30,423 nucleotides of DNA, from the IMG/VR virus record IMGVR_UViG_3300036852_000302, positions 1 through 30,423 of that record; one strand, written 5' to 3'. Positions 14,893-30,212 of this stretch are shown in pieces. The translations under genes were made by a program, and so were the position numbers. Every line of letters begins with the position of its first letter. Position 1 is the stretch's first letter. This stretch comes from a virus. Below the pieces are notes generated by a model. It saw only the letters and a list, made by a program, of their open reading frames with translations, was not told the origin of the DNA and did not search any database.

Positions 14893-15260
14893 CCACCCAC
14901 CTCGCTGCCGCCGAAGCCCGGCACCAACAAGCCGTCGCCGCCCTAGCCGATGCCGAGGCCGAGTTGCTCGCCGCCATGAGGGTGATCTATCCGGCGCACG
15001 CCACCTCAGTGGAGGCTATGGCCGACCGACGGTTCGAGGCGCTGCTCGAAGGTCGGCAGCCCTTCTGGGAGCTGGCGCAGGCCTTCGGCACCTACCGCCG
15101 GGCGCAGCGCGCTGAGGCCAAGGCCAGGAGCGCGGCCTACAGGGCGAAGTTCGCCGCCGTGCCTGCCGCTCCACCGGCCTCACCTCCTGCTCGCCGCAAG
15201 AAAGCGGTGCCGCGGAAAATGACCATCGGCGCCTACTTCGCCGAGGCGCGAGCCGCATGA
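14889..15260 (+). CDS. Ala-rich coiled-coil protein
   Basis: A 123-residue protein starting MTTHLAAAEARHQQAVAALA, overlapping the previous stop (ATGA) and the next start. Residues 1-40 and 65-95 are heptad-like Ala/Glu/Arg helices. A Pro/Lys-rich linker (AAPPASPPARRKKAVPRK) precedes a short conserved-looking end TIGAYFAEARAA. Function unknown; a structural or DNA-associated accessory role is likely. Confidence 0.6.
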   Translation: MTTHLAAAEARHQQAVAALADAEAELLAAMRVIYPAHATSVEAMADRRFEALLEGRQPFWELAQAFGTYRRAQRAEAKARSAAYRAKFAAVPAAPPASPPARRKKAVPRKMTIGAYFAEARAA

Positions 15261-15799
15261 CCTTCGATCTCGTCATTATCTCCGTCAGCGAGCGCGCCGT
15301 GCAGTGCGCGCTTGAAGATGGCTCCCCCGCATTCTGGTTGCCGCGCCAGAAGGTCGAATGGCGCGGCGCCCTCGATCCCGGCGATGTGGTCAGCGTCACT
15401 ATCCCTCGATGGCTGGCCCTGAAGCATACGCAACTTATCGCATCGCGAGTGAGTACCCAAACAGTGCTCGAACTCCAGAAGTTCGAGCTCGATCCAACCA
15501 TAGCAACCGCAGAAGGCAGTTTCCCAATGGCCTACGACAACGACATGTCCGGCGCACTCTTCAAGAACGACCGCAAGGAGAAGCCCAGTCACGCCGACTA
15601 TCGAGGCGACGTGACAATCGACGGCCGGAAGTACTGGCTGAACGGCTGGATCAAGGAAACCAAGGAAGGCAAGAAGTACCTCTCGCTCAGCGTGAAGCCG
15701 GTTGAGCAGCGCACCGACGACCGCCGCCAGCCGCAGCGACCTGCCGGTGGGCCGTCGTTCGCGGACAGCGACATACCGTTTGCCGCGGAGGTGCGGTGA
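15257..15799 (+). CDS. Two-domain protein with a DUF736-like/ssDNA-binding-like C-terminal half
   Basis: A 180-residue protein that looks like two proteins joined. Residues 1-60 (MTFDLVIISVSERAVQCALE, FWLPRQKVEW, GDVVSVTIPRWLALKHTQLI) match the short phage proteins that end at a WLPRS...VTVPEWLA-like pattern. Residues 91-155 (MAYDNDMSGALFKNDRKEKP, DYRGDVTIDGRKYWLNGWIK, KKYLSLSVKPVE) match the small DUF736-like / phage ssDNA-binding-like family, which normally begins at MAYDN. AGAAGG lies before the internal ATG at 15527, so the second half may also be made alone. A fusion caused by loss of a stop codon, or a real two-domain protein, are both possible. Confidence 0.75.
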   Translation: MTFDLVIISVSERAVQCALEDGSPAFWLPRQKVEWRGALDPGDVVSVTIPRWLALKHTQLIASRVSTQTVLELQKFELDPTIATAEGSFPMAYDNDMSGALFKNDRKEKPSHADYRGDVTIDGRKYWLNGWIKETKEGKKYLSLSVKPVEQRTDDRRQPQRPAGGPSFADSDIPFAAEVR

Positions 15800-15957
15800 T
15801 GGCTCGTCGAGGCGAGGCCGGCATGAGCACCAAGCCGGCCCTGCCACCGCCGTGGGTCCGCCGCTGCGATTGGAAGTTCTACGGCAATGAGGTGGACTTC
15901 TACTTTCCCGGGCTCGACCAGGCCTGCCGAGGGCCGCGAGCTGCACCGGCTTTGTGA
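15799..15957 (+). CDS. Small unknown protein, possibly the 5' half of a frameshifted gene
   Basis: A 52-residue frame starting MARRGEAGMSTKPALPPPWV with CDWKFYGNEVDFYFPGLDQA in the middle. It overlaps the previous stop (TGATG). From about 15915 the sense seems to move into the +1 frame, which contains GRELHRLCDWAERN (see 15887-16075). The tail RGPRAAPAL looks like out-of-frame translation. So this may be the front part of a gene broken by an indel. Confidence 0.45.
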   Translation: MARRGEAGMSTKPALPPPWVRRCDWKFYGNEVDFYFPGLDQACRGPRAAPAL

Positions 15958-16075
15958 CTGGGCCGAACGGAACACCGACCAGCTCGCCGCATGGATGGCG
16001 ATGGTCGACACCTTCCGCGCCGCCAACCAGTGCGGCTGCCCGGCCTGCGTCGCCGAGCGAGGAGTGAACGCATGA
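15887..16075 (+). CDS. Small CxxC protein, possibly the 3' half of a frameshifted gene
   Basis: A 62-residue frame ending GRELHRLCDWAERNTDQLAA... CGCPACVAERGVNA. The body after residue 15 is a helix with a C-terminal C-G-C-P-A-C metal-type motif. The ATG at 15887 has GGAAG upstream and may be real, but the N-terminal 14 residues (RWTSTFPGSTRPAE) look out of frame. Its stop overlaps the next ATG (ATGA). Together with 15799-15957 it could be one gene of about 90 residues. Confidence 0.5.
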   Translation: MRWTSTFPGSTRPAEGRELHRLCDWAERNTDQLAAWMAMVDTFRAANQCGCPACVAERGVNA

Positions 16076-16230
16076 AGCTCAAAGGCATCACCATCAAGGG
16101 CTTCAAGCTCACCAAGGGCGGCCGCGTCGAGAAAGATCCGCGCCGTCTCAACGTGTCCCAGCGTCTGAAAGAACAGTCCCGAAACAGTAAGCGCGTGCGC
16201 GTCGTCTCCCGAAGGAAGACACAGCCATGA
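16072..16230 (+). CDS. Small very basic protein
   Basis: A 52-residue protein starting MKLKGITIKGFKLTKGGRVE and ending KRVRVVSRRKTQP. It overlaps both neighbours by four bases. It has about 17 Lys/Arg and no Cys, so RNA or DNA binding is plausible, but the family is unknown. Confidence 0.6.
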   Translation: MKLKGITIKGFKLTKGGRVEKDPRRLNVSQRLKEQSRNSKRVRVVSRRKTQP

Positions 16231-16529
16231 AGGGCAAGAACGTCCTGAACCCGTTCGATCCAGCTGAGGCCATAGGCACCACCGAAGCCGCGCACATGGC
16301 AGACGTCAGCGACCGCACCATCCGTAACTGGGTGCTGGAGCACGACATTGGCCGCAAGGTCGGCGGACATAACAAGGTCAGTAAACCGGCGCTAACCATG
16401 TTCATCGAGGGCGATACCGGCGCGTTGGCTGACTACCATGCCGGCGAGAGGACTGCCCGCGTCCAGTCCTACTTCGAGCGGCATGATATCCAGGCTTCCG
16501 CTTCTTCCGATTTTGCCGCTGTAGACTGA
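16227..16529 (+). CDS. Helix-turn-helix DNA-binding protein
   Basis: A 100-residue protein starting MKGKNVLNPFDPAEAIGTTE. Residues 17-52 (IGTTEAAHMADVSDRTIRNW, VLEHDIGRKVGGHNKVSKPA) are a clear MerR/excisionase-like helix-turn-helix with a wing. The C-terminus (LADYHAGERTARVQSYFERH) is helical. It is the last gene of the operon before an intergenic operator-like site, so it could act there. A role as a packaging or recombination co-factor is also possible because TerS lies 0.7 kb downstream. Confidence 0.75.
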   Translation: MKGKNVLNPFDPAEAIGTTEAAHMADVSDRTIRNWVLEHDIGRKVGGHNKVSKPALTMFIEGDTGALADYHAGERTARVQSYFERHDIQASASSDFAAVD

Positions 16530-16542
16530 TCACATATGTAAA

Positions 16543-16570
16543 TCGGGTGTTCCACTGCGGAGTCACCCGA
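16543..16570. promoter_or_regulatory. Inverted repeat TCGGGTG/CACCCGA, candidate operator
   Basis: TCGGGTG (16543-16549) and CACCCGA (16564-16570) are exact inverted arms with a 14-base spacer, ending just before the ATG at 16572. The half-site with flank, AATCGGGTG, is shared with the palindrome at 1638-1653. It probably regulates the gene at 16572 and the late region behind it. Confidence 0.55.
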
Positions 16571-16571
16571 G

Positions 16572-16781
16572 ATGCAAATCGCATCTACATCACGGTTTCC
16601 CGACGCGATCCGATGCCGCGTCCCTCGCGGCATGCCCCAGGCAGTCGAAGCGGCCGCACGCGCTCAGCTTACTGCCCCATCCGAATACATCCGTCGCGCC
16701 GTCTTGGCTGCGTTGAGGACTGACGGGGTCCACCTGGACCCAGACGGCCACGTCGACACGGGAGTCGCCGAGAGGCGCTGA
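16572..16781 (+). CDS. Small putative ribbon-helix-helix-like protein
   Basis: A 69-residue protein. After a short N-terminus, RCRVPRGMPQAVEAAARAQL and APSEYIRRAVLAALRTDGVH give strand-helix-helix with an SEYIRRA motif, typical of short phage/plasmid proteins with an RHH-like fold. An inverted repeat lies against its start codon, as expected for self-control. Start ATG 16572 is in the footprint of the right arm. Assignment is by pattern only. Confidence 0.65.
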   Translation: MQIASTSRFPDAIRCRVPRGMPQAVEAAARAQLTAPSEYIRRAVLAALRTDGVHLDPDGHVDTGVAERR

Positions 16782-16784
16782 CCC

Positions 16785-16949
16785 ATGGCCAACCTCAGCA
16801 CCTCGATCACACCAGAGCGCACCAGCTACGGCAAGATCGTGCCCGAGCACGTACTGGCAGACCGACGCCGAGTCCGTAACGAGCGCATCAAACTCGCCGG
16901 CAGGACCATTCTGGCCCAGGCCATCGAGCAGGAGGCGGCATCGTCGTGA
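16785..16949 (+). CDS. Small unknown protein
   Basis: A 54-residue protein starting MANLSTSITPERTSYGKIVP, three bases after the previous stop. It continues DRRRVRNERIKLAGRTILAQ and ends QEAASS. It is a helical, basic peptide without a recognised family. The next gene starts with GTG inside its last codons (16946). Confidence 0.55.
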   Translation: MANLSTSITPERTSYGKIVPEHVLADRRRVRNERIKLAGRTILAQAIEQEAASS

Positions 16950-17206
16950 AGCCCAACCCTTGCCCGCTCTGCGGCGTCGACATGAGTGTGTGGGGCCGCA
17001 TGCACACGTGCCGCCCACCGTCCACGGCAGACACGTCAGCGAGCGCAGAGCATGTGGCTAACGCTGGCAGCGTGATTGAGCATCTGGCTAACAGACCGGG
17101 CCGCAATCGAGCCAGCACCACTTACCGCTACCGCAACCCCACCAAGCGCCGCCTCTACATGCGTAACCTCATGCGCCAGCGCCGTGCAACGGGGAGAGCC
17201 GCATGA
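16946..17206 (+). CDS. Small zinc-finger-like protein
   Basis: An 86-residue protein starting with GTG at 16946 (MKPNPCPLCGVDMSVWGRMH). Cys6 and Cys9 with His20 and Cys22 (CPLCG ... MHTC) form a likely C2HC zinc site. The C-terminus is basic (YRYRNPTKRRLYMRNLMRQR). The stop overlaps the TerS start (ATGA), so it is made just ahead of the terminase and may help packaging. HNH-like residues beyond this are not visible, so I do not call it a nuclease. Confidence 0.6.
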   Translation: MKPNPCPLCGVDMSVWGRMHTCRPPSTADTSASAEHVANAGSVIEHLANRPGRNRASTTYRYRNPTKRRLYMRNLMRQRRATGRAA

Positions 17207-17811
17207 GCCTCGCAGCCTCCTCCGAGGACACGCCCCGAAAGCTCAAGCGCGAGAACTCCAAGGCCAAAAACGGCAAAGGCCCAAAGCCCGTCCTCCCGAC
17301 GCCAAGGCTCCATGCGCCACCCCGCACAGACGACCACCTCGGTAAATATCCACCCGAGGTCATCGATGACATCTTCCGACGCGTTTCTCACGGAGAGACT
17401 TTGACCCAGGCTTGCAACAGCAATCCGAATTATCCTCATCCGTCGAGTGTCATCGATTGGGCCATTAAGGACCCCGTTCTAGCCCAACGGTACGCGCACG
17501 CGCGCGAAGGCCAAACTGCCCGGTGGGCGGACGATATCGTCGACTCGGTCAAGGCCGCGACGCCTGAGACGGCGAACGTGGTTCGGCTGGAGATCGACGC
17601 GAAGAAGTGGCTGCTCGCTCGTCTCCGGCCTGCTCAGTACGGCGACAAGGTTGATCTGACCACCGCCGGCCAGCCGCTGCAGCAGGTCGACGCTGCTGCT
17701 GCAATCAAGGCGCTACTCGATGCGCTGCCGGCGCTGGCACCGACCGCCCTGCCCTCGCCGACTGTGCTCGACGCCGTGGCGGTGCCCGTCGAGACGGAGG
17801 GTGAGCCATGA
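17203..17811 (+). CDS. terS: Phage terminase small subunit
   Basis: A 202-residue protein that should recognise the packaging start and recruit the large subunit. Residues 50-95 form the DNA-binding HTH (YPPEVIDDIFRRVSHGETLT, then SSVIDWAIKDPVLAQRYAHA). The hallmark of this TerS type, AKKWLLARLRPAQYGDKVDL, is at 133-152. The Ala/Pro-rich tail would be the oligomer-to-TerL contact. It is the first of the packaging genes but is separated from TerL by a recombinase gene, which is unusual. The gene is complete. Confidence 0.85.
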   Translation: MSLAASSEDTPRKLKRENSKAKNGKGPKPVLPTPRLHAPPRTDDHLGKYPPEVIDDIFRRVSHGETLTQACNSNPNYPHPSSVIDWAIKDPVLAQRYAHAREGQTARWADDIVDSVKAATPETANVVRLEIDAKKWLLARLRPAQYGDKVDLTTAGQPLQQVDAAAAIKALLDALPALAPTALPSPTVLDAVAVPVETEGEP

Positions 17812-17835
17812 CGCATCTGAGCCTCCGAAACCAAC

Positions 17836-17880
17836 AACTCTTTACAAAGCAAGCATTGTGTAAAGAGTTTAACTCTGTTA
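17836..17880. repeat. Overlapping palindromes between TerS and the recombinase gene
   Basis: AACTCTTTACA (17836-17846) and TGTAAAGAGTT (17859-17869) are exact inverted arms around a 12-base spacer. The right arm also starts a second palindrome, GTAAAGAGTTTAACTCT with GTTAC behind it. The stretch is far richer in A/T than the genes around it. It lies 37 bases before the start of the FimB-like recombinase gene, so it may be that enzyme's crossover site, its operator, or a terminator for terS. Confidence 0.7.
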
Positions 17881-17916
17881 CCTCCGATGCCATCGGCATT
17901 TCTGGAGGGTGTTTCG

Positions 17917-18474
17917 ATGAAGGCCAAACGGCAAAAGGTAAAGAGAGACCGCAAGTACCTGTACGAGCACGAGGTGAAGAAGCTCCTCGATGCCGCCAAG
18001 AAGGGGCGTCATGGCACCAGGGACTATTCCCTGCTGCTGCTGATGTACCGGCACGGGCTTCGGGTGTCCGAGGCTACAGGCATGCGGCTGAGCCAGCTCG
18101 ATCTCAACACATCACGCTTGGTGGTGGAGCGGCTGAAGGGCTCGACGGACGGCAACCACCCGGTGGCCGGCGACACGCTCCGGGCACTCAGGAGCTACCT
18201 CAGGGTCCGCGAGCCAGGTCAGCCATGGCTGTTCCTGTCGGAGCGTGGCGGGCAGCTGACGCGCCAGGCAGTCAACTACATCATCGCCCAGGCTGCAGAG
18301 CGGGCTGGGTTGGAGCATGCCCACCCACACGCACTGCGGCACAGCTGCGGCTGGCGGCTGGCGAACAAGGGGACGCCGATCAGGTTCATGCAGGACCTGC
18401 TCGGGCACAAGGACCCCAAACACACCTCGTACTACGCGCAGGTCGCGGGCAAGAACCTCGACGGCCTGACGTAG
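17917..18474 (+). CDS. FimB/XerD-like tyrosine recombinase (catalytic domain only)
   Basis: A 185-residue recombinase. The start at 17917 (MKAKRQKVKRDRKYLYEHEV) follows GGAGGG. It lacks a separate core-binding domain and has FimB/FimE-like length. Catalytic residues are visible: Arg49 (YRHGLRVSEA), Lys74 (ERLKGS), His138/Arg141 (PHALRHSCGW), His164 (LLGHKD) and Tyr172 or 173 (TSYYAQVA). FimB-like enzymes invert or excise short segments at inverted repeats, and one such repeat lies just upstream. Being between TerS and TerL it could control packaging gene expression, resolve multimers, or be an insertion. It is complete and probably active. Confidence 0.9.
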   Translation: MKAKRQKVKRDRKYLYEHEVKKLLDAAKKGRHGTRDYSLLLLMYRHGLRVSEATGMRLSQLDLNTSRLVVERLKGSTDGNHPVAGDTLRALRSYLRVREPGQPWLFLSERGGQLTRQAVNYIIAQAAERAGLEHAHPHALRHSCGWRLANKGTPIRFMQDLLGHKDPKHTSYYAQVAGKNLDGLT

Positions 18475-18502
18475 GCTGCAGCCACGCAGGGGGTGCTCTC
18501 CC

Positions 18503-20038
18503 ATGAGCATCCCGCCCGAACTTGTCGCCCTCGCCCAGCGCCTTGCCGGACTCACACCGGAGCAGCGCGACGCTGCCATCGCCAAGATGCCAGCGGCCCA
18601 GCAGCGGACGCTCGTCGCGACGATCACGGGCGTGCCGCTCATCAAGGCGACGATCGGCGCGACCGCCAAACTCACACCGAAGCAGGCCGAAGCCGACGCG
18701 CTGCTCGACGGCCCATGCCGCCACACTCTGCTCGTGGGTGGATCACGCAGCGGGAAGACGTGGACCATCGTCCGCAAGCTCGTCCAGCGTGCGCTGACGG
18801 CGACGTGCCGGCAGGTGGTGCTGCGCTTCCGGTTCAACTCCCTGCACGCGTCCATCATCGGCGACACGCTGCCGGCCGTCATGGCCGCCCACTACCCTGG
18901 TGCAGAGTGGCGGATCGACAAGCAGCTGTGGGTTGCCAGGTTCAGCAACGACAGCGAGCTGTGGTTCTCCGGCCTGGACGAGGCCGACCGGGTCGAGAAG
19001 GTGCTGGGCCAGGGTCACGTCGGGCTCTACTTCAATGAAAGTTCTCAGATCCCGTGGAGCTCGCGGCAGGTAGCCGTCACCCGCCTCGCGCAGAAGATTG
19101 AGGGTGTGCCGCAAAAGGCTTTTTACGACGCCAACCCTCCGAGCCGGCGGTCATGGCTGCACAGCATCTTCGTGGACAAGGTTGATCCTGATCGGCACCA
19201 GCCGCTAGCAAATCCCGACTCGTACGGGTGGCTGCTGCTCAATCCGAACGACAACCGCGAGAACCTCACGGACGAGTACCTCGCGGATCTCGATGCGCTT
19301 GATGAGCGGCGGCGCAATCGGTTCTTCCTGGGGCTGTGGTCGGACGACGCGGAGAACGCGCTCTGGACGGTGGAGCTTCTCGACAAGGGGCGGCTCATCA
19401 CCCAGGCGCCGCCCGACATGCAGCGTATAGTGATTGCGGTGGACCCAACGGGGTGCTCGGGGCCGGAGGATTTGCGCTCGGACGAGGTTGGCATCGTCGT
19501 TGTTGGCCTAGGTACCGATGGTCGCGGCTACGTGCTCGAAGACCTGTCCGGCCGGTTCGGGCCTGATCAGTGGAAGACGATCGTGGCGAGCGCCTATGAC
19601 CGGTGGGGCGCTGATGCCGTGGTGGTCGAGACGAATTTCGGCGGCGCAATGGTGACAGAAGTCTTGAGAACGGCCGTGGCGCAAGGTGGCTATCCGCTCA
19701 ACATCAAGGAGGTGTCGGCATCGCGTGGCAAGCACGTTCGCGCCGAGCCGATTGCGGCGCTGTGGTCGCAGGACCGTGTGTCGCTTGCTGGCCGGTTCAC
19801 GGAGCTTGAGAACCAGATGCTGTCGATGACGACGGCTGGCTATCGCGGTGACCGGTCGCCCGATCGTCTCGACGCGATGGTCTGGGGCATGACGGCACTC
19901 TTCCCGGCGATGGCTCGGGATGCTCGCGACGCGGCGTCTGGTGGTGCCGAGTCGCGTCGACGGACCCGCATCCCCAAGGTGATCTACTCGCGTGGCTTCG
20001 AGGTCAGCCGAATGTATTCGGCGCGGGGGAGGCGCTGA
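18503..20038 (+). CDS. terL: Phage terminase large subunit
   Basis: A 511-residue packaging motor and nuclease. The first 60 residues are an extra Ala-rich segment. Walker A GGSRSGKT is at 79-86, the Walker B-like strand GLYFNE at 174-179, and the coupling motif AFYDANPP at about 206-213. The RNase H-like nuclease shows IAVDPTG (Asp314), VVVETNFGG (Glu376) and SPDRLDAMVWG (Asp454/Asp457), so both active centres look intact. TerS lies upstream but a recombinase gene intervenes. No portal gene follows, which is very unusual for a complete phage. Confidence 0.95.
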   Translation: MSIPPELVALAQRLAGLTPEQRDAAIAKMPAAQQRTLVATITGVPLIKATIGATAKLTPKQAEADALLDGPCRHTLLVGGSRSGKTWTIVRKLVQRALTATCRQVVLRFRFNSLHASIIGDTLPAVMAAHYPGAEWRIDKQLWVARFSNDSELWFSGLDEADRVEKVLGQGHVGLYFNESSQIPWSSRQVAVTRLAQKIEGVPQKAFYDANPPSRRSWLHSIFVDKVDPDRHQPLANPDSYGWLLLNPNDNRENLTDEYLADLDALDERRRNRFFLGLWSDDAENALWTVELLDKGRLITQAPPDMQRIVIAVDPTGCSGPEDLRSDEVGIVVVGLGTDGRGYVLEDLSGRFGPDQWKTIVASAYDRWGADAVVVETNFGGAMVTEVLRTAVAQGGYPLNIKEVSASRGKHVRAEPIAALWSQDRVSLAGRFTELENQMLSMTTAGYRGDRSPDRLDAMVWGMTALFPAMARDARDAASGGAESRRRTRIPKVIYSRGFEVSRMYSARGRR

Positions 20039-20039
20039 G

Positions 20040-20375
20040 ATGGCAGCCCAACCCCCTGCGCAGCCCAACAAGCCCGAGCAGCTGCCGAACGGCAGCGTGG
20101 TGGCATGGGACCACTTGTTGCGCAAGTATGCGGTATTCAGCCCATCCGGCGATTTGGCGGGGTATCGGTACGACGTCGAGCGAGCGCGTAAGTTCGCTTC
20201 CTCGCTGCCTGTTGGTCCGCCACCTCCACCGCCTCCGACGCCACTCAGCCGGAGCCCGCGTGCTCGCCCGCTTCCGCCGCAGACCTTTCTACCCACGACG
20301 ACGACGCCCGAGGCTGAGCGCAGCTTCTTCCCCACCCGTCGGCCGCTGCGTGTGGTGCGCGTTCGGCCGCGATGA
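20040..20375 (+). CDS. Small proline-rich protein of unknown function
   Basis: A 111-residue protein starting MAAQPPAQPNKPEQLPNGSV. Residues 15-60 (NGSVVAWDHLLRKYAVFSPS, DLAGYRYDVERARKFASSLP) look folded, followed by a run of seven prolines and a Pro/Arg-rich tail. It begins two bases after the TerL stop. It is too short for a portal. It may be a packaging accessory or a virion decoration; no family recognised. Confidence 0.6.
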   Translation: MAAQPPAQPNKPEQLPNGSVVAWDHLLRKYAVFSPSGDLAGYRYDVERARKFASSLPVGPPPPPPPTPLSRSPRARPLPPQTFLPTTTTPEAERSFFPTRRPLRVVRVRPR

Positions 20376-21067
20376 CTGAGAGGACCAAGGACATGGTGAC
20401 AATGATGAGAACGCAGAAACTGGCAGCTTCCACGGGCATGCTTGCGGCGGAGCGTGAGCGCCTGGAGCGCGAGATCGAGGCTTTGAGTAACGGCTTGCCG
20501 GGCGAGGCTGCGGCGATTGTTGCGCGTGCCGACGAATTGATGGCCGAGCACGGCGCCAAGATTGCGGAGCTTAAGTCGAAGCGCGATGCGATCGACGCCA
20601 CGTTTGAGGTCGATGCAGCCAAGGCCAAGGAGGCGCGGGCCAAGGCGCGGGGTGAACGTCTGCAGGCCCACTGTAACGAACTCGTCGCGGTGGAGGCGTC
20701 GCGGCTCGACCATATCGCCAACGCTCAGGAGCTATTGGAAAAGGCTGTTGCTGAGATCAACGCTGCCTTCGACGATCACAGCCGCCTGCGCGAGATTGCT
20801 CGGGCACTGACGCCAGGGGTGAGCATGCCGGCGCTGATGGCGTTGTCGCCCACGGACCTCGCGAACAGGACCGGTGCGTGGGTCATGGGACTACTGAAGG
20901 GCGTGAGGCTTCCGGGGGCGCTTCCTGGCGCGGCGCACCACATCGGACCGCTGGCGCTCCTCACCTCAATCCATTTCCGCCAGGACATGACTTGGCGCGA
21001 GCGCGAGGAGCGCGTTGTGGCGCCTGCCATTGAGGCTGCTGTCGGCTATGCACAGGGAGATGCCTAA
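20372..21067 (+). CDS. Coiled-coil protein, possible scaffold or virion accessory
   Basis: A 231-residue protein. Residues 20-145 form a long charged coiled coil (AAERERLEREIEALSNGLPG, KIAELKSKRDAID), followed by a less charged domain (PALMALSPTDLANRTGAWVM). The start may be 20372 (overlapping the previous stop) or 20393 (with GAGAGG upstream). The fold and place after TerL would suit a scaffolding or structural protein, but no homology signal confirms it. Confidence 0.55.
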   Translation: MTERTKDMVTMMRTQKLAASTGMLAAERERLEREIEALSNGLPGEAAAIVARADELMAEHGAKIAELKSKRDAIDATFEVDAAKAKEARAKARGERLQAHCNELVAVEASRLDHIANAQELLEKAVAEINAAFDDHSRLREIARALTPGVSMPALMALSPTDLANRTGAWVMGLLKGVRLPGALPGAAHHIGPLALLTSIHFRQDMTWREREERVVAPAIEAAVGYAQGDA

Positions 21068-21999
21068 TGGCGATCGAACGCCCCTCATGGGGAGCGCCCG
21101 CCGCAGGTGCTGGCATTGGCGGCCGTGAGACACCCGGCGACGTGCCGGCGAGACCTGAGCCGGCGAGCGAGGCGAAGCCTGCAGAGGCAGTGGAGGCGCC
21201 GCGCGCTGCACCGGCGGTTGTCGATGCTCGCGCGCTCGATGCGATCGATCCTGAGGACCAGGCGACCTATCGCCGGCTTATTGCTGATGGGTTGTTCAGC
21301 CCCGAGGAGGTGCAGAACGTCTACATGCTCAGCGACTCCGAGATGGAGGCACTGCAGCAGCCGGCACGGGGCAAGGCGTCCATAGAGAGAGAGCTGGAGA
21401 AAATAGCGCGCGTGATGCGTGAGGACCGCCCCAGATATGAGCGAGAGTTTGCCGGACGTTATCGCGAGCTGCTGGAGGCGAAGGAGCAGCAGAAGGCGAA
21501 CCAGGCCAAGGGGGGCGGCGCCAAGGCTGCGTCGAATGAGCCGGCTGATGTCTCTGGTCTCCCGCCCGAAGTTGTAGCCGACTGGTCGAAGGCCGGAGGC
21601 CTCGAGCATCATCTCAAGGTCGCGCAGGGCACAGCCAGCCTTGCGTTCGACGCGCTGGATGACCAGGAGGCGGCGACGTTCCAGCAAGGTTTCGACCAGC
21701 TTCCGGCACCGATCCAGGCCGCGGTTTACCAGGGAATCAGCGTCGAGCCGGGTTTCGCGAAGTCGGCCAGCGATGCGGCCGTCACCGAGTTCGCCGCGAT
21801 CGGCACGGAATGTGCCGACTTGGTTGCGTCGTGGGGCTCCAAGGCTTCGAGCCGGCTGGGTGTCGCGCAGTCGCGCGTCGCCACGATCTTGAAGGGCTTG
21901 CCTGCATCTGAACGGCAGGCCGCAATGGCGTGGATGGACAGCATGCCTGCAAGCCAGCAGGCCGCCGTGGTCCGCAGCCTCGCAGGTAAGGGGCGCTGA
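21067..21999 (+). CDS. Unknown late-region protein
   Basis: A 310-residue protein with a disordered Pro/Ala-rich N-terminus (1-55). Residues 70-145 include the pattern SIERELEKIARVMREDRPRY EREFAGRYRELLEA, which I recall from uncharacterised phage late proteins. The C-terminal part has LPPEVVADWSKAGGLEHHLK and two Gln/Ala-rich repeats, LPAPIQAAVYQGI and MPASQQAAVVRSL. It does not look like a major capsid fold (no clear spine helix and loop pattern), but I cannot exclude a divergent head or scaffold protein. Confidence 0.55.
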   Translation: MAIERPSWGAPAAGAGIGGRETPGDVPARPEPASEAKPAEAVEAPRAAPAVVDARALDAIDPEDQATYRRLIADGLFSPEEVQNVYMLSDSEMEALQQPARGKASIERELEKIARVMREDRPRYEREFAGRYRELLEAKEQQKANQAKGGGAKAASNEPADVSGLPPEVVADWSKAGGLEHHLKVAQGTASLAFDALDDQEAATFQQGFDQLPAPIQAAVYQGISVEPGFAKSASDAAVTEFAAIGTECADLVASWGSKASSRLGVAQSRVATILKGLPASERQAAMAWMDSMPASQQAAVVRSLAGKGR

Positions 22000-22001
22000 C
22001 C

Positions 22002-22631
22002 ATGCCGGCCAAGCTGCCGAGCGTCACACGAAGGCGTTCGGACTCTGACCCAGACCCTGAGATCCGTCGCCTCTATGTCGAGGGCGCGACGATGAGAGCA
22101 AGGATTCTCATCGACTGGGCGACGCGGCGCGACGCGCGGGCGCGTCAGGTCGAGGAGGAGGTCTCGCTGCCGAGCGCGCCGGATGTGCCCATGGGTGTAA
22201 ATCCCGAAAACTCCGCTTTCATCCCGCTGGGTCTTAGCTCCTGGCAGGGCGAAGACGCTGAATTCGATCCGAGCGAGTTCGACGGCGATGGCTACGATGA
22301 AGTCGAGATCGAGTCCGATCCAGTCGCGGCGATCGAGCCAGCAGATGCCGGCCGCATCGCCGAGCGTCTGAAGGGGCTCAACCACGCTCAGCTCAAGCAG
22401 GTCGCCGCAGCATTCAGCGAGGAAGGCGATGACGCGGAAGGCCTGCGGCAGAGCCTGCTCAGCTACGTCGATGGATGCGGCAACGACGCCGCCGACGATG
22501 CTCGCGGCGATCCCGATGCGGCGCGCGAGGCCGGGCGCCGTGAGGCGGTAACATTCCTCTCGGAAGAGATCGACAGCGCCGCGGCTATGCCGGCGAGCGA
22601 AGACGATCCAGACGAAGAGATGGCCAGCTGA
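22002..22631 (+). CDS. Acidic unknown late-region protein
   Basis: A 209-residue protein, strongly acidic in its second half (FDPSEFDGDGYDEVEIESDP and ASEDDPDEEM). The N-terminus is basic (PSVTRRRSDSDPDPEIRRLY). Acidic, Ala-rich proteins between terminase and internal proteins are often scaffolds or chaperones for assembly. No domain is certain. Confidence 0.55.
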   Translation: MPAKLPSVTRRRSDSDPDPEIRRLYVEGATMRARILIDWATRRDARARQVEEEVSLPSAPDVPMGVNPENSAFIPLGLSSWQGEDAEFDPSEFDGDGYDEVEIESDPVAAIEPADAGRIAERLKGLNHAQLKQVAAAFSEEGDDAEGLRQSLLSYVDGCGNDAADDARGDPDAAREAGRREAVTFLSEEIDSAAAMPASEDDPDEEMAS

Positions 22632-22642
22632 GGACGACGAAC

Positions 22643-24688
22643 ATGGCAGACGACTACAACGAGCCGACACCCGGCTTTGCCGAGGAAATCCAGCGTGCAC
22701 TAGGAGGATCGGAGGCACCGCCTGAGCAGCCGGCCGCGCCGCGGGCAGATCCCGCGTTGCAGGAGTGGGAGGCGCTGCGCCGTCGGCGGAAGGGCGCCAA
22801 CGCGGCGCCTCCGGAGCCGGTCGAGACCCAACCGGACCCCAACGTCGGCCTGAGCCCGCTTGCCCAGGAACTGGAGCGGGAGGGCTGGTTCGGTCAGCTC
22901 GCTGCACAGAATGCGGCGGAGCGCGAGTCCGAGCGGCGGGCGGCCATCCGACAGTCTGCCGAGGCGGCAGCCCAGGAGGCGGCACGATACGGCGGCGGCG
23001 ATGCGCCGGAGCTGTACCCAGGCGAGGCTGAGGCGACGCGGAATGCTGGCGCCGTCTTTGCCGAGGCGCCACGATGGGTGGCGCAGCATCTCTTTCAGCT
23101 GCCAGGTAGCATCGTCGCGGGCGGTGGCAGCGTGCTGCAGGCACCTGATGTGACCATTGCGGCGGGTCAGTACGGTGGGCAGGCGACGCGCCAAAGGCAG
23201 TTGGCGCTCGCCGACGCCATCGACCGGGGCGAGTCCTACAGCCTGAGACAGCCCGGCTCCTATTCCGTCGACACCCCGCTCGTGATGTTCGCCAACCAGT
23301 ATCGGTCGGCGGGCCCTGAAGACCGGGCGCGCATGCGGGCAAGTTTGCAGTCCGAGATCGCGGCGTTCAACCCTACGCCGATCCAGCAACGTCCCCTCTA
23401 CCGAGCCGGCGAGGCGATGCAGGAGACCGGGCGCAATCTGGTTCCTCATTTGGAGGGCTACAATGAGCAGAGCGTCGCCACGCAGCTGTCTCGCGGTCTC
23501 GGCTCGATGATCGTCGGCATGCCGGTGGCCATGATTTCTGGTCCGGCTGGTGTGGTCGGCGGTGCCGCAGTGTTCGGCGCCATGGGTATTGGCGAGGCCA
23601 CGCAAAGTGCCGTCGAGTTCGACCGGCGCGAGCGTGCGGCAGGACGCGAAGGGATCTCGCAGGAGCAAATCGTTCTCGCCGGCATCCTTGGCGTTGCGCC
23701 TGGCACGACTGACATTCTCCCTGTCGAGGTGATGCTCAACCGCCTTCGCATCCCCGGGGTTCCGCCGGCTGCAAACCGCATCCTCGCACGAGCGGTCGCA
23801 AGCGTAGGCGGGCGCACCGTGATCCAGGCCCTGACTGAGGGCGGGCAGGAGGCATTCCAGCAGATCCTGCAGAACTTGATCACACAGCAGGTCTACAACC
23901 CGAACCAAGAACTTACTGAAAACACATGGTGGAATGCTGTGATCGGCGCAGGCGTCGGCGCCGAGTCCGAGCTCGGCCGGACCGCTCTTGCCAGCCTCGC
24001 CCGGTTGGGACGTGGTCGCGGCGGACGGGCGGCTACACAGCCCCCAACCGCTGCGCCCACGTCGGTGGAGGGCGGCTGGCAGCAGGCGGAGACGGAGACG
24101 CGGGCGGCCACTGCTCCTCCAACACTTCCAGAGGGAGCGTATGCCGATGACGTTGCCTGGGCCAACTCGCCAGAGGGCCGCGAATACCGCCGGCAGATAA
24201 GGGCCAGCTATGAGCGCCGATACCGCAGCGAGCCCCTGGACGTCTTAGGCAACAGAGACCGCATGGGTTGGGTGTTGGATCGATTCGGCGATCTCCGGGA
24301 CGCGGTCGGGCTGGGTGTTCCTGAGCCGCCGAATGACCCAGAGCTGCAGGCGCGGATGACCAGGGCAGACGCGGCGACCAGGGCCGCGCTCGTTAGCGAG
24401 GCGTACGTGATCGACGCCAATGGTCAGCGGCAAGGGGAGCCCGTGATCGTCCTGGACCCCAACTACTTCTCCCGCGACGGCCAGCGCTTCGCGAGAGTGC
24501 AGCAGCCGGATGGCACGACATCATCGCTGCCGGCGGAACAGCTGCAACCCACCGGCCGCGAGAGCGCGGCTGTGCGAGAAGCACGCGCTCGCGTCGGGTC
24601 GCCGCCACAGCCTGCTGCGCCGGCCGTGCAGCCTGACTGGGACGCGTTCGGGGCGAGCGCCATCTTCCGCCTAGGAGACCACGAATGA
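22643..24688 (+). CDS. Large candidate internal virion / ejection-type protein
   Basis: A 681-residue protein. The first 135 residues are disordered and Gln/Glu/Arg-rich. Hydrophobic Gly/Ala stretches at 285-318 (LGSMIVGMPVAMISGPAGVV), 343-357 and 431-440 could insert in membranes. The segment TEGGQEAFQQILQNLITQQV YNPNQELTENT (398-428) resembles a repeated pattern in large internal proteins of podovirus-like phages, which leave the head with the DNA. No transglycosylase, protease or polymerase motif is visible. The C-terminal 230 residues are polar. In a particle from a helper it could be a cargo protein that helps DNA entry. The family call is moderate. Confidence 0.65.
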   Translation: MADDYNEPTPGFAEEIQRALGGSEAPPEQPAAPRADPALQEWEALRRRRKGANAAPPEPVETQPDPNVGLSPLAQELEREGWFGQLAAQNAAERESERRAAIRQSAEAAAQEAARYGGGDAPELYPGEAEATRNAGAVFAEAPRWVAQHLFQLPGSIVAGGGSVLQAPDVTIAAGQYGGQATRQRQLALADAIDRGESYSLRQPGSYSVDTPLVMFANQYRSAGPEDRARMRASLQSEIAAFNPTPIQQRPLYRAGEAMQETGRNLVPHLEGYNEQSVATQLSRGLGSMIVGMPVAMISGPAGVVGGAAVFGAMGIGEATQSAVEFDRRERAAGREGISQEQIVLAGILGVAPGTTDILPVEVMLNRLRIPGVPPAANRILARAVASVGGRTVIQALTEGGQEAFQQILQNLITQQVYNPNQELTENTWWNAVIGAGVGAESELGRTALASLARLGRGRGGRAATQPPTAAPTSVEGGWQQAETETRAATAPPTLPEGAYADDVAWANSPEGREYRRQIRASYERRYRSEPLDVLGNRDRMGWVLDRFGDLRDAVGLGVPEPPNDPELQARMTRADAATRAALVSEAYVIDANGQRQGEPVIVLDPNYFSRDGQRFARVQQPDGTTSSLPAEQLQPTGRESAAVREARARVGSPPQPAAPAVQPDWDAFGASAIFRLGDHE

Positions 24689-25452
24689 GCGCACTGATCG
24701 CCGTCTGCATGCACGACGCCGTCCACCTCCTGACCGACGGCGCTGCGCTGGCACGCAGCGACGGCACCCTGGTGGAGTTTCGCCGGAAACAGGCACTTTG
24801 CTGCAACAACGGTGTCGCGGTGGCCGCGATCGGCTTTTCGCCGCGCGCCTGGCACTTCGCGCAGCTGGCCGACGAGCAGCTGAATGACTTCGACGCAGTG
24901 ATCGATGCTGCCGTCGAACTATGGGCTGAGACCTGGCGGGCACTGCCCGCCGACGCCCAAGATATCCCCGGCGTGATGGTGCTTGCCGGCTGGAGCGCAA
25001 AAGCTGGGAAGCTCAGCATGTATGTGATCAGGGAGAACAGCGAGCTCGTTGAGGCTGGAGCGTACGCCGCCGGGCCGGTGGATACGTGCGGAGAAGCGCT
25101 GCGTCGGATTACTAAACGGTTCGGCCCCGACCCGTCGAGTTTTACCATCCGCGACGGGGTGGAGGTGATGGAAGCGTTGCGCCGAGAGCATCCGCGTCCG
25201 TACCCAACTGGCCTGCGGCCTGCGGTTGGCGGGTTCATCACGCACACGATGATGACGGCTACGGACGTTAGGACCGAGGTGATACATCGCTGGCCGGATC
25301 GTATCGGCCACCCTATCGACATTGATGCGTCGGCCGATCCCGAGATGCGCGACGACAACTTCTGCGGCATGACGATGGCCGAGGTCTACGCGATGCGCGA
25401 GGCCATGGTGCTCCGGCGGGCGGTACATCTGGACGAAGGATTGAGCACGTGA
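24685..25452 (+). CDS. Unknown protein, possible Ntn-hydrolase-like fold
   Basis: A 255-residue protein starting MSALIAVCMHDAVHLLTDGA. The sequence LLTDGAALARSDGTLVEFRR KQALCC followed by GVAVAAIGFSPRA and GVMVLAGWSAKAGKLSMYVI follows the strand pattern of Ntn-hydrolase/proteasome-like proteins that occur near phage fibre genes. The nucleophile at the mature N-terminus cannot be defined. It overlaps the previous gene by four bases and the next GTG start. It may be a structural protein that reuses the fold. Confidence 0.5.
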   Translation: MSALIAVCMHDAVHLLTDGAALARSDGTLVEFRRKQALCCNNGVAVAAIGFSPRAWHFAQLADEQLNDFDAVIDAAVELWAETWRALPADAQDIPGVMVLAGWSAKAGKLSMYVIRENSELVEAGAYAAGPVDTCGEALRRITKRFGPDPSSFTIRDGVEVMEALRREHPRPYPTGLRPAVGGFITHTMMTATDVRTEVIHRWPDRIGHPIDIDASADPEMRDDNFCGMTMAEVYAMREAMVLRRAVHLDEGLST

Positions 25453-25685
25453 GCGGGTTATTCGCCAAGCCGAAAATGCCTCCGCCTCCCAAGCCCCAGC
25501 GCATGCCGGTCGAGACTGACCCATCGATCCAGGCCGCCGGGATACGGGCACGCGAGGACGCGATGAAGCGGTCGGGGCGACTCTCGACCATTCTAACGGA
25601 TCAGCTCGGCGCGACGGCGGGACCGCGCGCTCCGAACCCAGAAAAGGTGATGATGGGCTCCAGCGGCGTAAAGTTTGGAGCATGA
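25449..25685 (+). CDS. Small virion-associated-type protein
   Basis: A 78-residue protein with GTG start (MSGLFAKPKMPPPPKPQRMP). The pattern Pro/Lys-rich start, then AAGIRAREDAMKRSGRLSTI LT and a C-terminal SSGVKFGA is one I recall from small conserved genes near the portal or head-tail connector of podovirus-like phages. Here no portal is next to it, and it precedes the fibre. I infer a particle-associated role; the molecular function is unknown. Confidence 0.65.
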   Translation: MSGLFAKPKMPPPPKPQRMPVETDPSIQAAGIRAREDAMKRSGRLSTILTDQLGATAGPRAPNPEKVMMGSSGVKFGA

Positions 25686-25728
25686 TCGATGCCGATTACC
25701 TGGACGAAGGACTAACGAGGCAAACAAA

Positions 25729-25980
25729 ATGGCAACAACAATCACAAAGCGGATTTCCGGCACGGCAGCGGGCGGCGCGACCAAGCGCGTCAGCCAAGGT
25801 CCGAATGATGGACTAACCTTGCTGGAGCTTGAAGGTGACGCAGGTGACGGCGTCCTGCTCCTCGAAGGCGACGTGCAGTCCGGTAGCGACGCGTTGAAAC
25901 TTGAAGGCGACGTGGCGGCTGCCGATGAGGCAGCCTTCGCTTCGGCACAGACCAAGCGGATTCCGGAGCCTGTAGTCTGA
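25729..25980 (+). CDS. Small repeat-like acidic protein
   Basis: An 83-residue protein starting MATTITKRISGTAAGGATKR at ATG 25729. It has three related units, LTLLELEGDAGDG, VLLLEGDVQSGSD and ALKLEGDVAAAD, and the sequence TKRISGTA/TKRIPEP at both ends. The LEGD repeats look like a short beta-solenoid or trimer-forming segment. It overlaps the fibre start (TGATG), which suggests a fibre partner or chaperone. Confidence 0.6.
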   Translation: MATTITKRISGTAAGGATKRVSQGPNDGLTLLELEGDAGDGVLLLEGDVQSGSDALKLEGDVAAADEAAFASAQTKRIPEPVV

Positions 25981-27596
25981 TGGCCAACAAAACACTATCA
26001 AGCCTCACGGCCGGGACACCATCGCCGACCGATTACATCTACGGTGTGGTCGGCGCAGACTCGCGGAAGATCCTGCTCTCTACTCTGTTCGCTTCCGGCA
26101 TGGCCGACGGAACGGCCGCTGCACCTGGGTTGGCATTTAACAGCGATCCAGATGTTGGCCTGTTCCGACCCACCGCAAACACGCTCGGCATAGCCGCTAC
26201 ATCCGGCGTCCAGTTCCAGAACGCATCTTGGCTGATGGGTCGCAATGCTGCCGACTCTGCCAATCTCAACATGTTCCGGGTCAACTCCAGCAACTACACG
26301 GAGTTCTCAAATCCCCTCTACTACGACGAGACGAGCACCTTCCATAACGACATGGCCGCACTCACGCTGGTGCGGACGATCTCCGACCCAAGTGGTGCGC
26401 CCGGCGTCACCTACACCGGCCTCGTGAATGGCGCGTCGTTTCTGGTCAATGGCGGCAAGGGCGACAATGCCAATTATCGCGGCACCACGACGATGTTCGT
26501 CTACGCGAAGGACCGAAGCGACGTAACAGCCCTGAACAAGGGCGTTCTCTATGGCCTGGAGGTATGGGTCGCCCCACAGGTTGCGAGGAACAACGTACCG
26601 AATGACGACGCCGTGGGCATCATCGTCGTCAACTCCGGGACGGCAACGGCCACCGATGGCGTTTACATCGGTCGCGGCGGCAGCCTAGGTGCCAACGACG
26701 ATTATGCAGGAGGGTCATTCATCACGGAAGCGTGGAGCGATGGGGCGTTCCGCGGCACTGGTGAATATAATTACGGTCTCGATCTGCGGTTGGCGACCAT
26801 CGCCACGGCCGCGATCGGCATACCCAATAATACTTGGGTGGTTGCTCGCAACCAAGCCAACAACAACGACGTCAATATCTGGAAGCTCAACGCCACCAAC
26901 ACCACGGAATTTAGCCAAAACGCACAGTTCAACAGTTCCGTCCAGTTCAATGATGATCTGCTGCTTGATTCAAGTGCCATCATCAACTGGAACAGCGGCG
27001 ATGTGACCCTTACCTACTCGACCAATGCTCTTGCATTTGCCGGGGCGAGCAGTGGTTACTCGTTTGACAGCACGGTTGCCGTCAGCAACTCGGGTTCATT
27101 CTTCACAGCCCTTCGCTTGGAGAGCACCAGCGCTGATGCAAACAATGGTCCGTATATAAACATCTATCGGAACTCGGCCTCTCCGGCGGCTAGCGATGGT
27201 CTCGGAGTGCTGGTTTTCAAGGGCAAGGACAGCGGCGGAAACGATACTGACTATGCCTATATTTCAGCTTCTATCATCGACCCGACGAATGGCAGCGAAG
27301 ATGGGGAAGTTATCTTCAATGCGATGATCGGCGGCGCAGACACGCAGGTCTGGCGGTACGGCAATGGCGTTCAGATCGGCTCTCCGACCGGAGCCTATAA
27401 AGGCGCTGGCACGCTCAATGCCGCCTCCGGCCTTTACACGAATGGCGTTGGTGTATTCAGCGGGAGCGGGGCTCCATCACTCAGCGCGCCGAAGGGCTCC
27501 ATTTATACCAACACTACTGCGACCACCACCACGACGCGCCTCTACGTCAATACCGATGGCGGCACCACCTGGACGAACTTAACGACTGCTGCGTAG
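25980..27596 (+). CDS. Tail-fibre/tailspike-like protein
   Basis: A 538-residue beta-rich, Asn/Ser/Thr/Gly-rich protein. The start MANKTLSSLTAGTPSPTDYI YGVVG resembles the usual N-terminus of phage fibre proteins (SALTAG ... DLIYVV). LAFNSDPDVGLFRPTANTLG is a motif common in phage fibres and host-specificity proteins, and the end SIYTNTTATTTTTRLYVNTD GGTTWTNLTTAA matches their frequent C-terminus. No peptidase or lyase site is clear. The lower GC and different composition suggest exchange among elements. It would set host range. Its 3' end overlaps the convergent methyltransferase gene by 18 bases. Confidence 0.85.
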   Translation: MANKTLSSLTAGTPSPTDYIYGVVGADSRKILLSTLFASGMADGTAAAPGLAFNSDPDVGLFRPTANTLGIAATSGVQFQNASWLMGRNAADSANLNMFRVNSSNYTEFSNPLYYDETSTFHNDMAALTLVRTISDPSGAPGVTYTGLVNGASFLVNGGKGDNANYRGTTTMFVYAKDRSDVTALNKGVLYGLEVWVAPQVARNNVPNDDAVGIIVVNSGTATATDGVYIGRGGSLGANDDYAGGSFITEAWSDGAFRGTGEYNYGLDLRLATIATAAIGIPNNTWVVARNQANNNDVNIWKLNATNTTEFSQNAQFNSSVQFNDDLLLDSSAIINWNSGDVTLTYSTNALAFAGASSGYSFDSTVAVSNSGSFFTALRLESTSADANNGPYINIYRNSASPAASDGLGVLVFKGKDSGGNDTDYAYISASIIDPTNGSEDGEVIFNAMIGGADTQVWRYGNGVQIGSPTGAYKGAGTLNAASGLYTNGVGVFSGSGAPSLSAPKGSIYTNTTATTTTTRLYVNTDGGTTWTNLTTAA

Positions 27597-28367
27597 GAGG
27601 CAGAAGGCGCGCCGGTCGCCATGCCCCGTGTATGGGTCGGACGTCTCCATATCGCCAAGCACCTTGTAGTCGAGCACATCCCAGCCGGTGCGCTTGAAGA
27701 GTCGGAGCAACCCGGCCTCGGTGAACATCCAGAAGTTGGTGGCGTCGTTGTTGCTCTCGTCGGCATCGACGAGGTAGGCGCAGGGGATGCCCTTCAAGAG
27801 CGTACGGCCATGGGCTCCGACCTCCGCAGAGTACGCCATGACCCGCGTCGAAAGGAAGGCGTGGGACACGGAATGCGCCAGATGTTCGAGCGCATAGAAC
27901 GGGTTCTTCAGGTGATACAGAAGGCCGAGAAACAGCACGAAATCGTAACGTCCCGGCAGAATGAAGTGCGTGTCCAGATCAATGTTGTGGATGCGAGCCC
28001 TGGAATTCAGACCACGCTTGAGGGCACTCGCACCCTCTAGGCTGTTCATGTTGGTGGCGGGATTGTCGATGATGTCCACGTCTGCGCCGAGGCTTTCCAG
28101 AAGAAAGCCCAAGTCACCGTCGGCCGCGCCGATATCCGCTATCGCTTTGCCGGCAAGGTCAGAGAAGACGTGACGGTTGGCTCCGGTCAGCATCTGATCG
28201 AAGCTCCACACGTTCCCCAGACTGTCGTAGGGGAACCACTGGCGGCCGTCCGGCAGCGTAGTGGTTGTGCGCAATAGCGTCAGTCTTTGCTTGAATGCCC
28301 CTGCCGCGCCTTTGATGCGGTCGAAGGGGTCTGGAATGTCAACCGCCACAGCGTTTGAACCCCGCAT
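27579..28367 (-). CDS. Class I SAM-dependent methyltransferase (CmoB/DUF1698-like)
   Basis: A 262-residue enzyme. The start at 28367 avoids overlap with the divergent gene at 28395; an in-frame start at 28472 is less likely. Motif I is at 78-86 (DIGAADGDLGF), an acidic binding position follows at Asp98/Asp101, and the hallmark YDFVLFLGLLYHLKNPFYAL is at 141-160. This matches the tRNA uridine-modifying CmoB-type and related small-molecule or glycan methyltransferases. I do not infer the substrate: tRNA, cell-surface sugar or a virion component are all possible. It is convergent with the fibre gene and looks like cargo. Confidence 0.85.
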   Translation of the reverse strand: MRGSNAVAVDIPDPFDRIKGAAGAFKQRLTLLRTTTTLPDGRQWFPYDSLGNVWSFDQMLTGANRHVFSDLAGKAIADIGAADGDLGFLLESLGADVDIIDNPATNMNSLEGASALKRGLNSRARIHNIDLDTHFILPGRYDFVLFLGLLYHLKNPFYALEHLAHSVSHAFLSTRVMAYSAEVGAHGRTLLKGIPCAYLVDADESNNDATNFWMFTEAGLLRLFKRTGWDVLDYKVLGDMETSDPYTGHGDRRAFCLLRSSR

Positions 28368-28394
28368 TGTCCCACCGTCGAAAGAGGTCGCCCC

Positions 28395-28583
28395 ATGAAC
28401 CCAGAGATCCAACGCCTGCAGGACGTGCTCGGTGCCATGCAGGCGCAACGCGACCAGGCGCTCAACGCTCATGTCATTTCGCAGGCTGAGAATGCCGCCC
28501 TCAAGCGAACCCTAGCCGACCGCGACGCCAGGATCAAGGCGCTGGAGGCTGATCTTCAGCAAGTTGAGAAGGCGACAGCCTGA
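28395..28583 (+). CDS. Small coiled-coil protein
   Basis: A 62-residue protein starting MNPEIQRLQDVLGAMQAQRD. Nearly the whole chain is one long amphipathic helix with Leu/Ala heptads (NAALKRTLADRDARIKALEA DLQQ). No membrane segment or lipobox, so it is not a spanin. It is divergent from the methyltransferase. Function unknown. Confidence 0.6.
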   Translation: MNPEIQRLQDVLGAMQAQRDQALNAHVISQAENAALKRTLADRDARIKALEADLQQVEKATA

Positions 28584-28590
28584 GGAGATG

Positions 28591-28749
28591 TCAGGCTCGG
28601 AGCCTTGAAACGGTGGCGTGGTGCACGCCGAGCAGCCGGCCGATACTCCTGGCGGAGAGTTCACACGGGGGGGAACTGGAGTTCAACGGCTTGCGTCGTG
28701 GAGCGCAGACGGTCACAGAGGTGAAATCCGTATCGTGTTGATTTCGCAT
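28591..28749 (-). CDS. Small helix-turn-helix protein
   Basis: A 52-residue frame starting MRNQHDTDFTSVTVCAPRRK at 28749 and ending ELSARSIGRLLGVHHATVSR LRA. The last 25 residues are a good homeodomain/resolvase-type HTH: SIGRLLGVHHATVSRL. The RBS is weak. It lies just past the terminator of the gene at 28842, so it would need its own promoter. The HTH echoes that at the C-terminus of that neighbour. It may be a remnant of a longer gene. Confidence 0.5.
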   Translation of the reverse strand: MRNQHDTDFTSVTVCAPRRKPLNSSSPPCELSARSIGRLLGVHHATVSRLRA

Positions 28750-28793
28750 GGAAGTTCCACTGGGGACACGAAAATGAAACGTCCTGGAGCGGA

Positions 28794-28834
28794 CAAAAAG
28801 AAAAGCCCCCGGAACCGCAAGGCTCCGGGGGGCT
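28794..28834 (-). terminator. Intrinsic terminator of the minus-strand gene 28842-29675
   Basis: The stem AGCCCCCGGA/TCCGGGGGGCT (28804-28834), with one unpaired base and an 11-base loop, is followed on the minus strand by CTTTTCTTTTTG. It starts eight bases after the stop codon. Position, stem and T-run are textbook for Rho-independent termination. Confidence 0.85.
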
Positions 28835-28841
28835 GGTTAGT

Positions 28842-29675: not shown

Positions 29676-29704
29676 GAGCGCGTCTCCATCGCGTTCAAGG
29701 TTTC

Positions 29705-29755
29705 GCCGGGTTGAGGCGTTTGCATCGCCTCCCCGGCACTTCTCCGGCGGAGAAG
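29705..29755. repeat. Two tandem strong hairpins in the gap 29676-29998
   Basis: First: GCCGGG-TT-GAGGCG-TTTGCAT-CGCCTC-CCCGGC (29705-29737), 12 pairs with a 2-base bulge. Second: CTTCTCCG-G-CGGAGAAG (29739-29755). They begin 30 bases before (on the minus strand) the start of the membrane protein gene, so they could form its mRNA leader. They could also be an initiation or binding site. The rest of the 323-bp gap holds no convincing gene. Confidence 0.65.
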
Positions 29756-29973: not shown

Positions 29974-29998
29974 ACCGTAAATCAGACAGCATCCGGCC

Positions 29999-30202: not shown

Positions 30203-30212
30203 GCGACCGGGC

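Follow-up and report, generated by a model that had tools for sequence, protein, structure and literature searches.

Known phage satellites either steal the packaging motor of their helper or carry a whole capsid of their own. In SaPI1, the prototype of one type of phage-inducible chromosomal island (PICI), capsid size is redirected by the protein CpmB, which has a C-terminal motif in common with the scaffold of 80alpha and attaches to the coat protein as that scaffold does (PMC5644958). Capsid-forming PICIs (cf-PICIs) and the Streptomyces satellites MulchRoom and MiniFlayer own both terminase subunits, plus portal and capsid (PMC10690885). The phage-inducible chromosomal minimalist island (PICMI), a satellite inserted next to fis, spans about 6 kb, has three core genes, and lacks a terS homologue (PMC10803314), and the 16.8-kb Pseudomonas AH14b satellite uses helper capsids and has its own primase, with no terminase and no sid-like gene (PMC4936722). 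Here, we analyzed the IMG/VR virus record IMGVR_UViG_3300036852_000302 over its full 30,423 bp (hereafter, the window). We consider it likely that the window represents a complete satellite of a podophage, residing probably in an alphaproteobacterium and operating by the mechanism proposed below. The element and its relatives combine a complete motor with the lack of a capsid and a seemingly captured scaffold signal.

The element would follow a piracy logic like that of SaPI1, yet by comparison it appears to belong to none of the described groups. Like SaPI1-type PICIs, it is integrative, with its own integrase, replication genes, and small terminase subunit (TerS), and, as with CpmB, the putative redirector of its family bears a scaffold C-terminal motif, here that of the podophage scaffold family (PMC5644958 for CpmB). 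It differs in having also a large terminase subunit (TerL), a fiber, and an ejected-type protein, in its presumed podophage-type helper, and in the motif, which lies within the protein and has no sequence relation to RIIK; since it has TerL, it falls outside a PICI definition of integrase, primase or replication genes, and TerS or Rpp without TerL. Both terminase subunits are also found in cf-PICIs and the Mulch/Flayer satellites, but the window has no major capsid protein, portal, or connectors of its own. It resembles PICMI in being a phage satellite, for which concatemer packaging is possible, but spans 30,296 bp with about 40 open reading frames (ORFs) and a full terminase. Its own primase and the likely use of helper capsids recall AH14b, which unlike the window lacks a terminase. 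P4-like elements carry sid, psu, and delta without a terminase, whereas none of these three was found in the PHROGs scans of the window and the terminase is complete. Our literature search, whose scope excluded most subscription papers and all preprints, found no described satellite that lacks a capsid yet combines a full terminase with a scaffold motif. The best reading is a new family of podophage satellites, which would extend satellites to environmental podophages, for which few are described.

Packaging genes and the search for head genes

The two ends of the record are identical over 127 bp, giving a closed circle of 30,296 bp, and because of this closure the absence of head genes is not due to truncation. 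The genes from 12115 to 27596 all lie on one strand and are tightly spaced. PHROGs searches with the approximately 40 ORFs gave no credible match to a portal, capsid, protease, tail tube, tape measure, holin, or endolysin; a weak Rz-like match at 28842-29936 (minus strand; E = 0.0085) and a weak major head match of the 24685 protein (E = 0.38; unnamed genes are referred to by their start, Table 1) were judged not credible. Iterated portal, major capsid protein, adaptor, and nozzle profiles derived from the nearest phages had no match in a six-frame translation of the window with filters off, whereas those of the phrog_831-type protein (25449, E = 1.4e-18) and of the scaffold (g21067, final scaffold residues only) did find a counterpart. 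Searches of PDB sequences with 24685, 22643, and g21067 returned nothing useful. The window therefore lacks the portal, major capsid protein, and tail tube or nozzle of a complete podophage.

In contrast to the head genes, the terminase is readily recognized, and the Walker A motif GGSRSGKT, N178-E179, and the nuclease residues D314/D458 of TerL are invariant relative to phage homologues. Relatives of TerL were gathered by two alignment-guided IMG/VR scans, which showed that the closest phage proteins, 59-62% identical, are encoded by podophage contigs. Eight of the nearest contigs (L026, L027, L107, L109, L110, L111, L122, and L151) have phrog_831 and the portal after TerL. In six of them (all but L107 and L111), the order after TerL is a phrog_831-type gene, the portal (phrog_332), a gene of about 100 codons, the scaffold, and the major capsid protein (phrog_3437), followed by tail genes wherever the contig is long enough. 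In the window, three nonhead genes (g20040, g20372, and g21067) occupy this place. Thus, the podophages with a phrog_332 portal and phrog_3437 capsid (L122/G003, L151/G002, L026, and L027) resemble the window in TerL, the phrog_831-type protein, and the scaffold motif, but their TerL gene is directly followed by the complete set of head and tail genes, which the window does not have. In the TerL tree, the window pairs with the sister contig L106 (support 94/95) within the podophage clade. In TerS, TerL, and the small recombinase, variation is highest at third codon positions, as expected for genes under selection.

These results bear on an initial reading of the window (hereafter, the original prediction), which had listed TerS, TerL, an ejection-type protein, a small particle-associated protein, and a fiber, and had recognized no portal, capsid, protease, tail, or lysis genes. 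The inventory of missing genes is upheld by PHROGs and by the tailored six-frame profiles, and both terminase subunits are confirmed by their Sf6_terminase/phrog_1482 and phrog_979 matches. The ejection-type protein is backed by matches to phrog_2206 and to a 4406-aa podophage protein, the small protein proved to be phrog_831, and the fiber has a podophage-type N terminus. What the list had overlooked is the tyrosine recombinase between TerS and TerL.

Sister elements, the scaffold motif, and the recombinase

The comparison set comprised the window as the single complete element and four partial sisters, all of them fragments, so that absences hold within the contigs only. L106 and L177 come from other metagenomes than the window. 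L106 carries TerS, recombinase (61%), TerL (65%), g20040, g20372, and g21067 (31%; remaining values in Table 1), followed by other DNA. L177 has the same six genes in the same order (TerS-recombinase-TerL-g20040-g20372-g21067), but its TerL, 80% identical to the L172 protein, belongs to a different, BPP-1-like family unrelated to the TerL of the window. L172/L173 share the single-strand DNA-binding protein (SSB), the 86-aa gene (58%), TerS (57%), and the recombinase (57%) with the window and have a BPP-1-like TerL, while in L171 the shared genes are the recombinase and a distantly related TerS, along with a third TerL family. The group thus contains two TerL families beyond that of the window (L171, L172, and L177), suggesting TerL exchange. 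No head genes were found in any of the sisters as far as their contigs reach. L108, whose TerL is 60% identical, was rejected as a further sister, as it has only small genes in common with phages and no recombinase.

Because the capsid-less late module recurs in L106 and L177, it is not a product of decay or misassembly. In the two sister contigs that extend (by about 1-1.6 kb) past the shared block, no fiber was found after it; the defining core of the family therefore seems, from gene content, to be TerS, recombinase, TerL, and the scaffold-motif protein, rather than terminase plus fiber.

The scaffold motif was detected with a profile of the last approximately 48 residues of 13 phage scaffolds, run on about 26,000 six-frame translations. 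The top matches outside the scaffold family itself were the L106 homologue of g21067 and then g21067 (16.4 bits), whereas the best of 20,000 shuffled g21067 sequences reached 11.3 bits. The L177 homologue (SVERELAEISALRKADSRAYWKDEPLQQRERELL) matched with E = 6.2e-12 among 44,034 frames. Profile-profile comparison (hhalign) of the satellite g21067 family with full-length phage scaffolds gave 95.8% and E = 7.5e-9, the alignment being confined to the motif segment and placed exactly at the scaffold C terminus. It is thus the L177 homologue and the family profile, not the match of g21067 by itself, that give the motif its strength, and the likeness to SaPI1 holds at the family level, the motif being common to the scaffold family. 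By analogy, the simplest reading makes g21067 a candidate capsid redirector, which would act through coat binding as CpmB does. Among other proteins considered, a 335-aa protein encoded upstream of TerS in L172 (7113-8120) has three motif-like stretches by eye, with a profile score that was not significant, and a scaffold candidate of Acidovorax AP1 showed no resemblance.

The original prediction of a satellite that borrows its capsid is supported by these data: no protein at 20372-24688, where a capsid or portal would have spoken against it, has sequence similarity to either, and the module recurs in L106 and L177. It had set the element apart from known satellites, which usually carry capsid-size modifiers, TerS, or their own capsid; here a correction is needed, as g21067 is a candidate capsid modifier. 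The proposed strategy of a whole terminase plus an own fiber seems to hold across the family for the terminase, which recurs in the sisters, but not for the fiber, which was not seen in the two contigs reaching past the shared block.

The recombinase is 55-64% identical to those of the four sisters, and the 13-8-13 inverted repeat that precedes its gene is kept upstream of it in L106, L171, L172, and L177, thus in five elements including the window, the L177 copy agreeing at 32 of 34 bases. A plasmid homologue, 56.8% identical, is encoded next to a Tn3 transposase on a plasmid of Sphingobium, where cointegrate resolvases are typically found. Because the plasmid homologues include this one, our best guess is that recombinase and site resolve multimers. 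Despite this likeness to Tn3-associated tyrosine recombinases, the window has no transposase, and its gene sits in the packaging operon beside the conserved site. A role in inversion was rejected, as no matching inverted pair of the site occurs in 16500-30423, and a role of the site as attP was rejected because it is unsplit in every sister contig. We regard a 232-aa ORF at 17808-18506 as a shadow frame.

Podophage relatives, proposed mechanism, and alternatives

The podophage contig G003 (93,968 bp; TerL 61% identical) matches the window across the fiber operon, the phrog_831-type protein, and the N terminus of its 4406-aa protein, to which residues 68-473 of the 681-aa protein align (E = 5e-10). 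The particle-associated genes of the window thus look made to fit a G003-type virion. G003 is probably near complete, because its contig ends fall between genes expected to be adjacent on a circular map. The size ratio of window to G003 is 0.32 (30.3/94), and satellites usually have about one-third of the helper size (PMC10803314). The 681-aa protein is a stand-alone relative of the N terminus of the 4406-aa protein and may be a truncated or repurposed ejected protein.

We propose that upon infection or induction of the helper, the element would excise and replicate with its own genes. The g21067 protein would use the copied scaffold motif to bind the helper capsid protein and steer shell assembly to the benefit of the satellite, possibly toward smaller shells. 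TerS would mark the DNA of the element, a helper-compatible TerL would dock on the helper portal and pump this DNA in, and the fiber and ejected protein of the satellite would be built onto the helper tail. Last, the small recombinase and the 13-8-13 site would turn packaged or replicated multimers into circles. Satellite status is well supported and helper dependence would follow from the missing head and tail genes, while we infer the change of capsid size, the matching of TerL to portal, and multimer resolution. Tentatively, the family may be a chassis with a constant recombinase, a related TerS, a coat-tuned scaffold-motif protein, a TerL slot refilled from unrelated phages to fit whichever helper portal is available, and Cre/lox-like multimer resolution. 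As the sisters differ in TerL while keeping the order of the other genes, they would allow the match of TerL to portal to be tested as a determinant of helper range.

Several points weigh against this reading. No helper turned up in the sample of the element, and G003 is a relative and not a demonstrated helper. The motif of g21067 on its own is weak (E = 0.014 across the full six-frame set) and lies internally, while it is terminal in phage scaffolds. Structure prediction was uninformative, the AlphaFold models being of low confidence (predicted local distance difference test, pLDDT, of 48 for g21067 and 37 for 24685). It is conceivable, if somewhat doubtful, that the element lacks capsid-size control and travels as a multimer of about three copies in full-size helper capsids, as PICMI packages concatemers (PMC10803314), and that g21067 is an internal virion protein or an inhibitor of helper assembly. 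Three copies would amount to about 91 kb, near the 94 kb of G003, and both the recombinase with its site and the Sf6-type TerS would suit this arrangement, as such TerS proteins go with headful packaging in known phages. Against it, the scaffold motif is the sole part that g21067 has in common with phage proteins, and its analogue CpmB alters capsid size (PMC5644958).

The homology of terminase, fiber, and ejected protein to podophages would also fit a defective prophage or deletion derivative that has lost its head genes. We consider this improbable: already disfavored by L106 and L177, it does not explain why the head genes are not merely deleted but replaced by a conserved block common to other elements, why the ORFs are intact with third codon positions varying most, or why the TerLs of the window and L106 group together. 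The lack of a family for several late proteins (22002 and 24685) and the uninformative structure models would fit a complete autonomous phage with a capsid and portal that have diverged beyond recognition. However, with a TerL about 60% identical to those of phages with recognizable head genes, its partners should be recognizable too; the only gene big enough for a portal, that of the 681-aa protein, is assigned elsewhere, and neither L106 nor L177 shows a large gene between g21067 and the contig end, making such a phage quite unlikely. The 127 bp of the terminal repeat is a common assembler word size, and circularity therefore depends on the assembly; nevertheless, an assembly artifact, be it a falsely closed circle or a fusion of two phages, is very improbable, as the junctions flanking TerL recur in independent contigs and the tract from 12115 to 27596 is uniform in direction and tightly spaced.

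Remaining genes of the element

The features of the satellite are listed in Table 1.

Table 1. Features of the window (positions in the 30,423-bp record).
Feature	Position	Strand	Evidence
Exact direct terminal repeat, 127 bp	1-127, identical to 30297-30423		Identical record ends
P4/phage-type integrase	6295-7560	+	Pfam Arm-DNA-bind_3 2.6e-14, Phage_int_M 2.4e-22, Phage_integrase 6.3e-18; phrog_1 3e-45
Toprim/DUF7146 primase-like protein	12115-13059	+	DUF7146 6.1e-11; phrog_510 DNA primase 1.4e-11
RepA-type AAA_25 replicative helicase	13059-14306	+	AAA_25 2.3e-28
SSB	15257-15799	+	phrog_18154 1.2e-14; kept in L172 (46%)
86-aa gene directly upstream of TerS	16946-17206	+	Kept in L106, L172/L173 (58-60%)
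TerS, Sf6-type	17203-17811	+	Sf6_terminase 4.5e-25; phrog_1482 3.5e-25; 57% to L172 TerS
13-8-13 inverted repeat AACTCTTTACAAA-GCAAGCAT-TGTGTAAAGAGTT, candidate recombination site	17836-17869		Just before recombinase gene
Small tyrosine recombinase, 195 aa, XerC-like catalytic domain only	17887-18474	+	PF00589 9.4e-46; PDB XerC-like 3.5e-27 (two-sequence profile)
TerL, ATPase and nuclease motifs intact	18503-20038	+	phrog_979 6.7e-61
g20040, 111 aa	20040-20375	+	Kept after TerL in L106 (38%), L177 (46%)
g20372, 231-aa coiled-coil protein	20372-21067	+	L106 29% (pairwise E 2e-21), L177 41%
g21067, scaffold-motif protein, candidate capsid redirector	21067-21999	+	Residues 102-144 match podophage scaffold C-terminal motif
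Acidic 209-aa protein	22002-22631	+	No family match
681-aa protein, candidate ejected protein	22643-24688	+	phrog_2206 (virion-RNA-polymerase family) 4.8e-6
255-aa protein, no family	24685-25452	+	No match; AlphaFold pLDDT 37
phrog_831 protein	25449-25685	+	phrog_831 1.4e-6; 68.6% to G003/L122; profile E 1.4e-18
86-aa fiber-operon protein	25720-25980	+	54% to 92-aa gene directly upstream of fiber in G003
Tail fiber, podophage-type N terminus	25980-27596	+	N terminus aligns with G003 fiber
Methyltransferase-like cargo gene (probable)	27579-28472	-	Methyltransf_23 9.2e-6, slightly below Pfam cut-off

No tRNA is present in the window. The nearest homologue of the helicase (44.7%) is encoded on a Xanthobacter plasmid, and its closest relatives sit on plasmids and prophages of Alphaproteobacteria; an alphaproteobacterial host is therefore suggested, though not proven. 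Neither a genome scan nor the sampling of 399 genomes yielded a host-borne sister. In the late region, the 24685 protein matched no phage record, and pattern searches of viral contigs with 22643 and 24685 found nothing; the phrog_831-type gene, which in the podophages lies between TerL and portal, here precedes the fiber operon. Within the terminal repeat, at 10-43 and 30306-30339, we found a 34-bp near-palindrome, AATAGCTCTAGTACGAATTCGTACGAAAGCTATT, which may be an att or operator site and whose pattern did not occur in the other loci compared at that stage. In PICIs, a master regulator, stl or alpA, answers a helper protein; possible counterparts in the window are an HTH_17/excisionase-like gene at 16227-16529 and a CopG-like one at 29999-30202. 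A scan for defense systems gave a single weak candidate match. The methyltransferase-like gene and the gene at 28842-29936 (minus strand), which encodes a membrane protein with a C-terminal helix-turn-helix, lie on the strand opposite to the late genes and are probably cargo.

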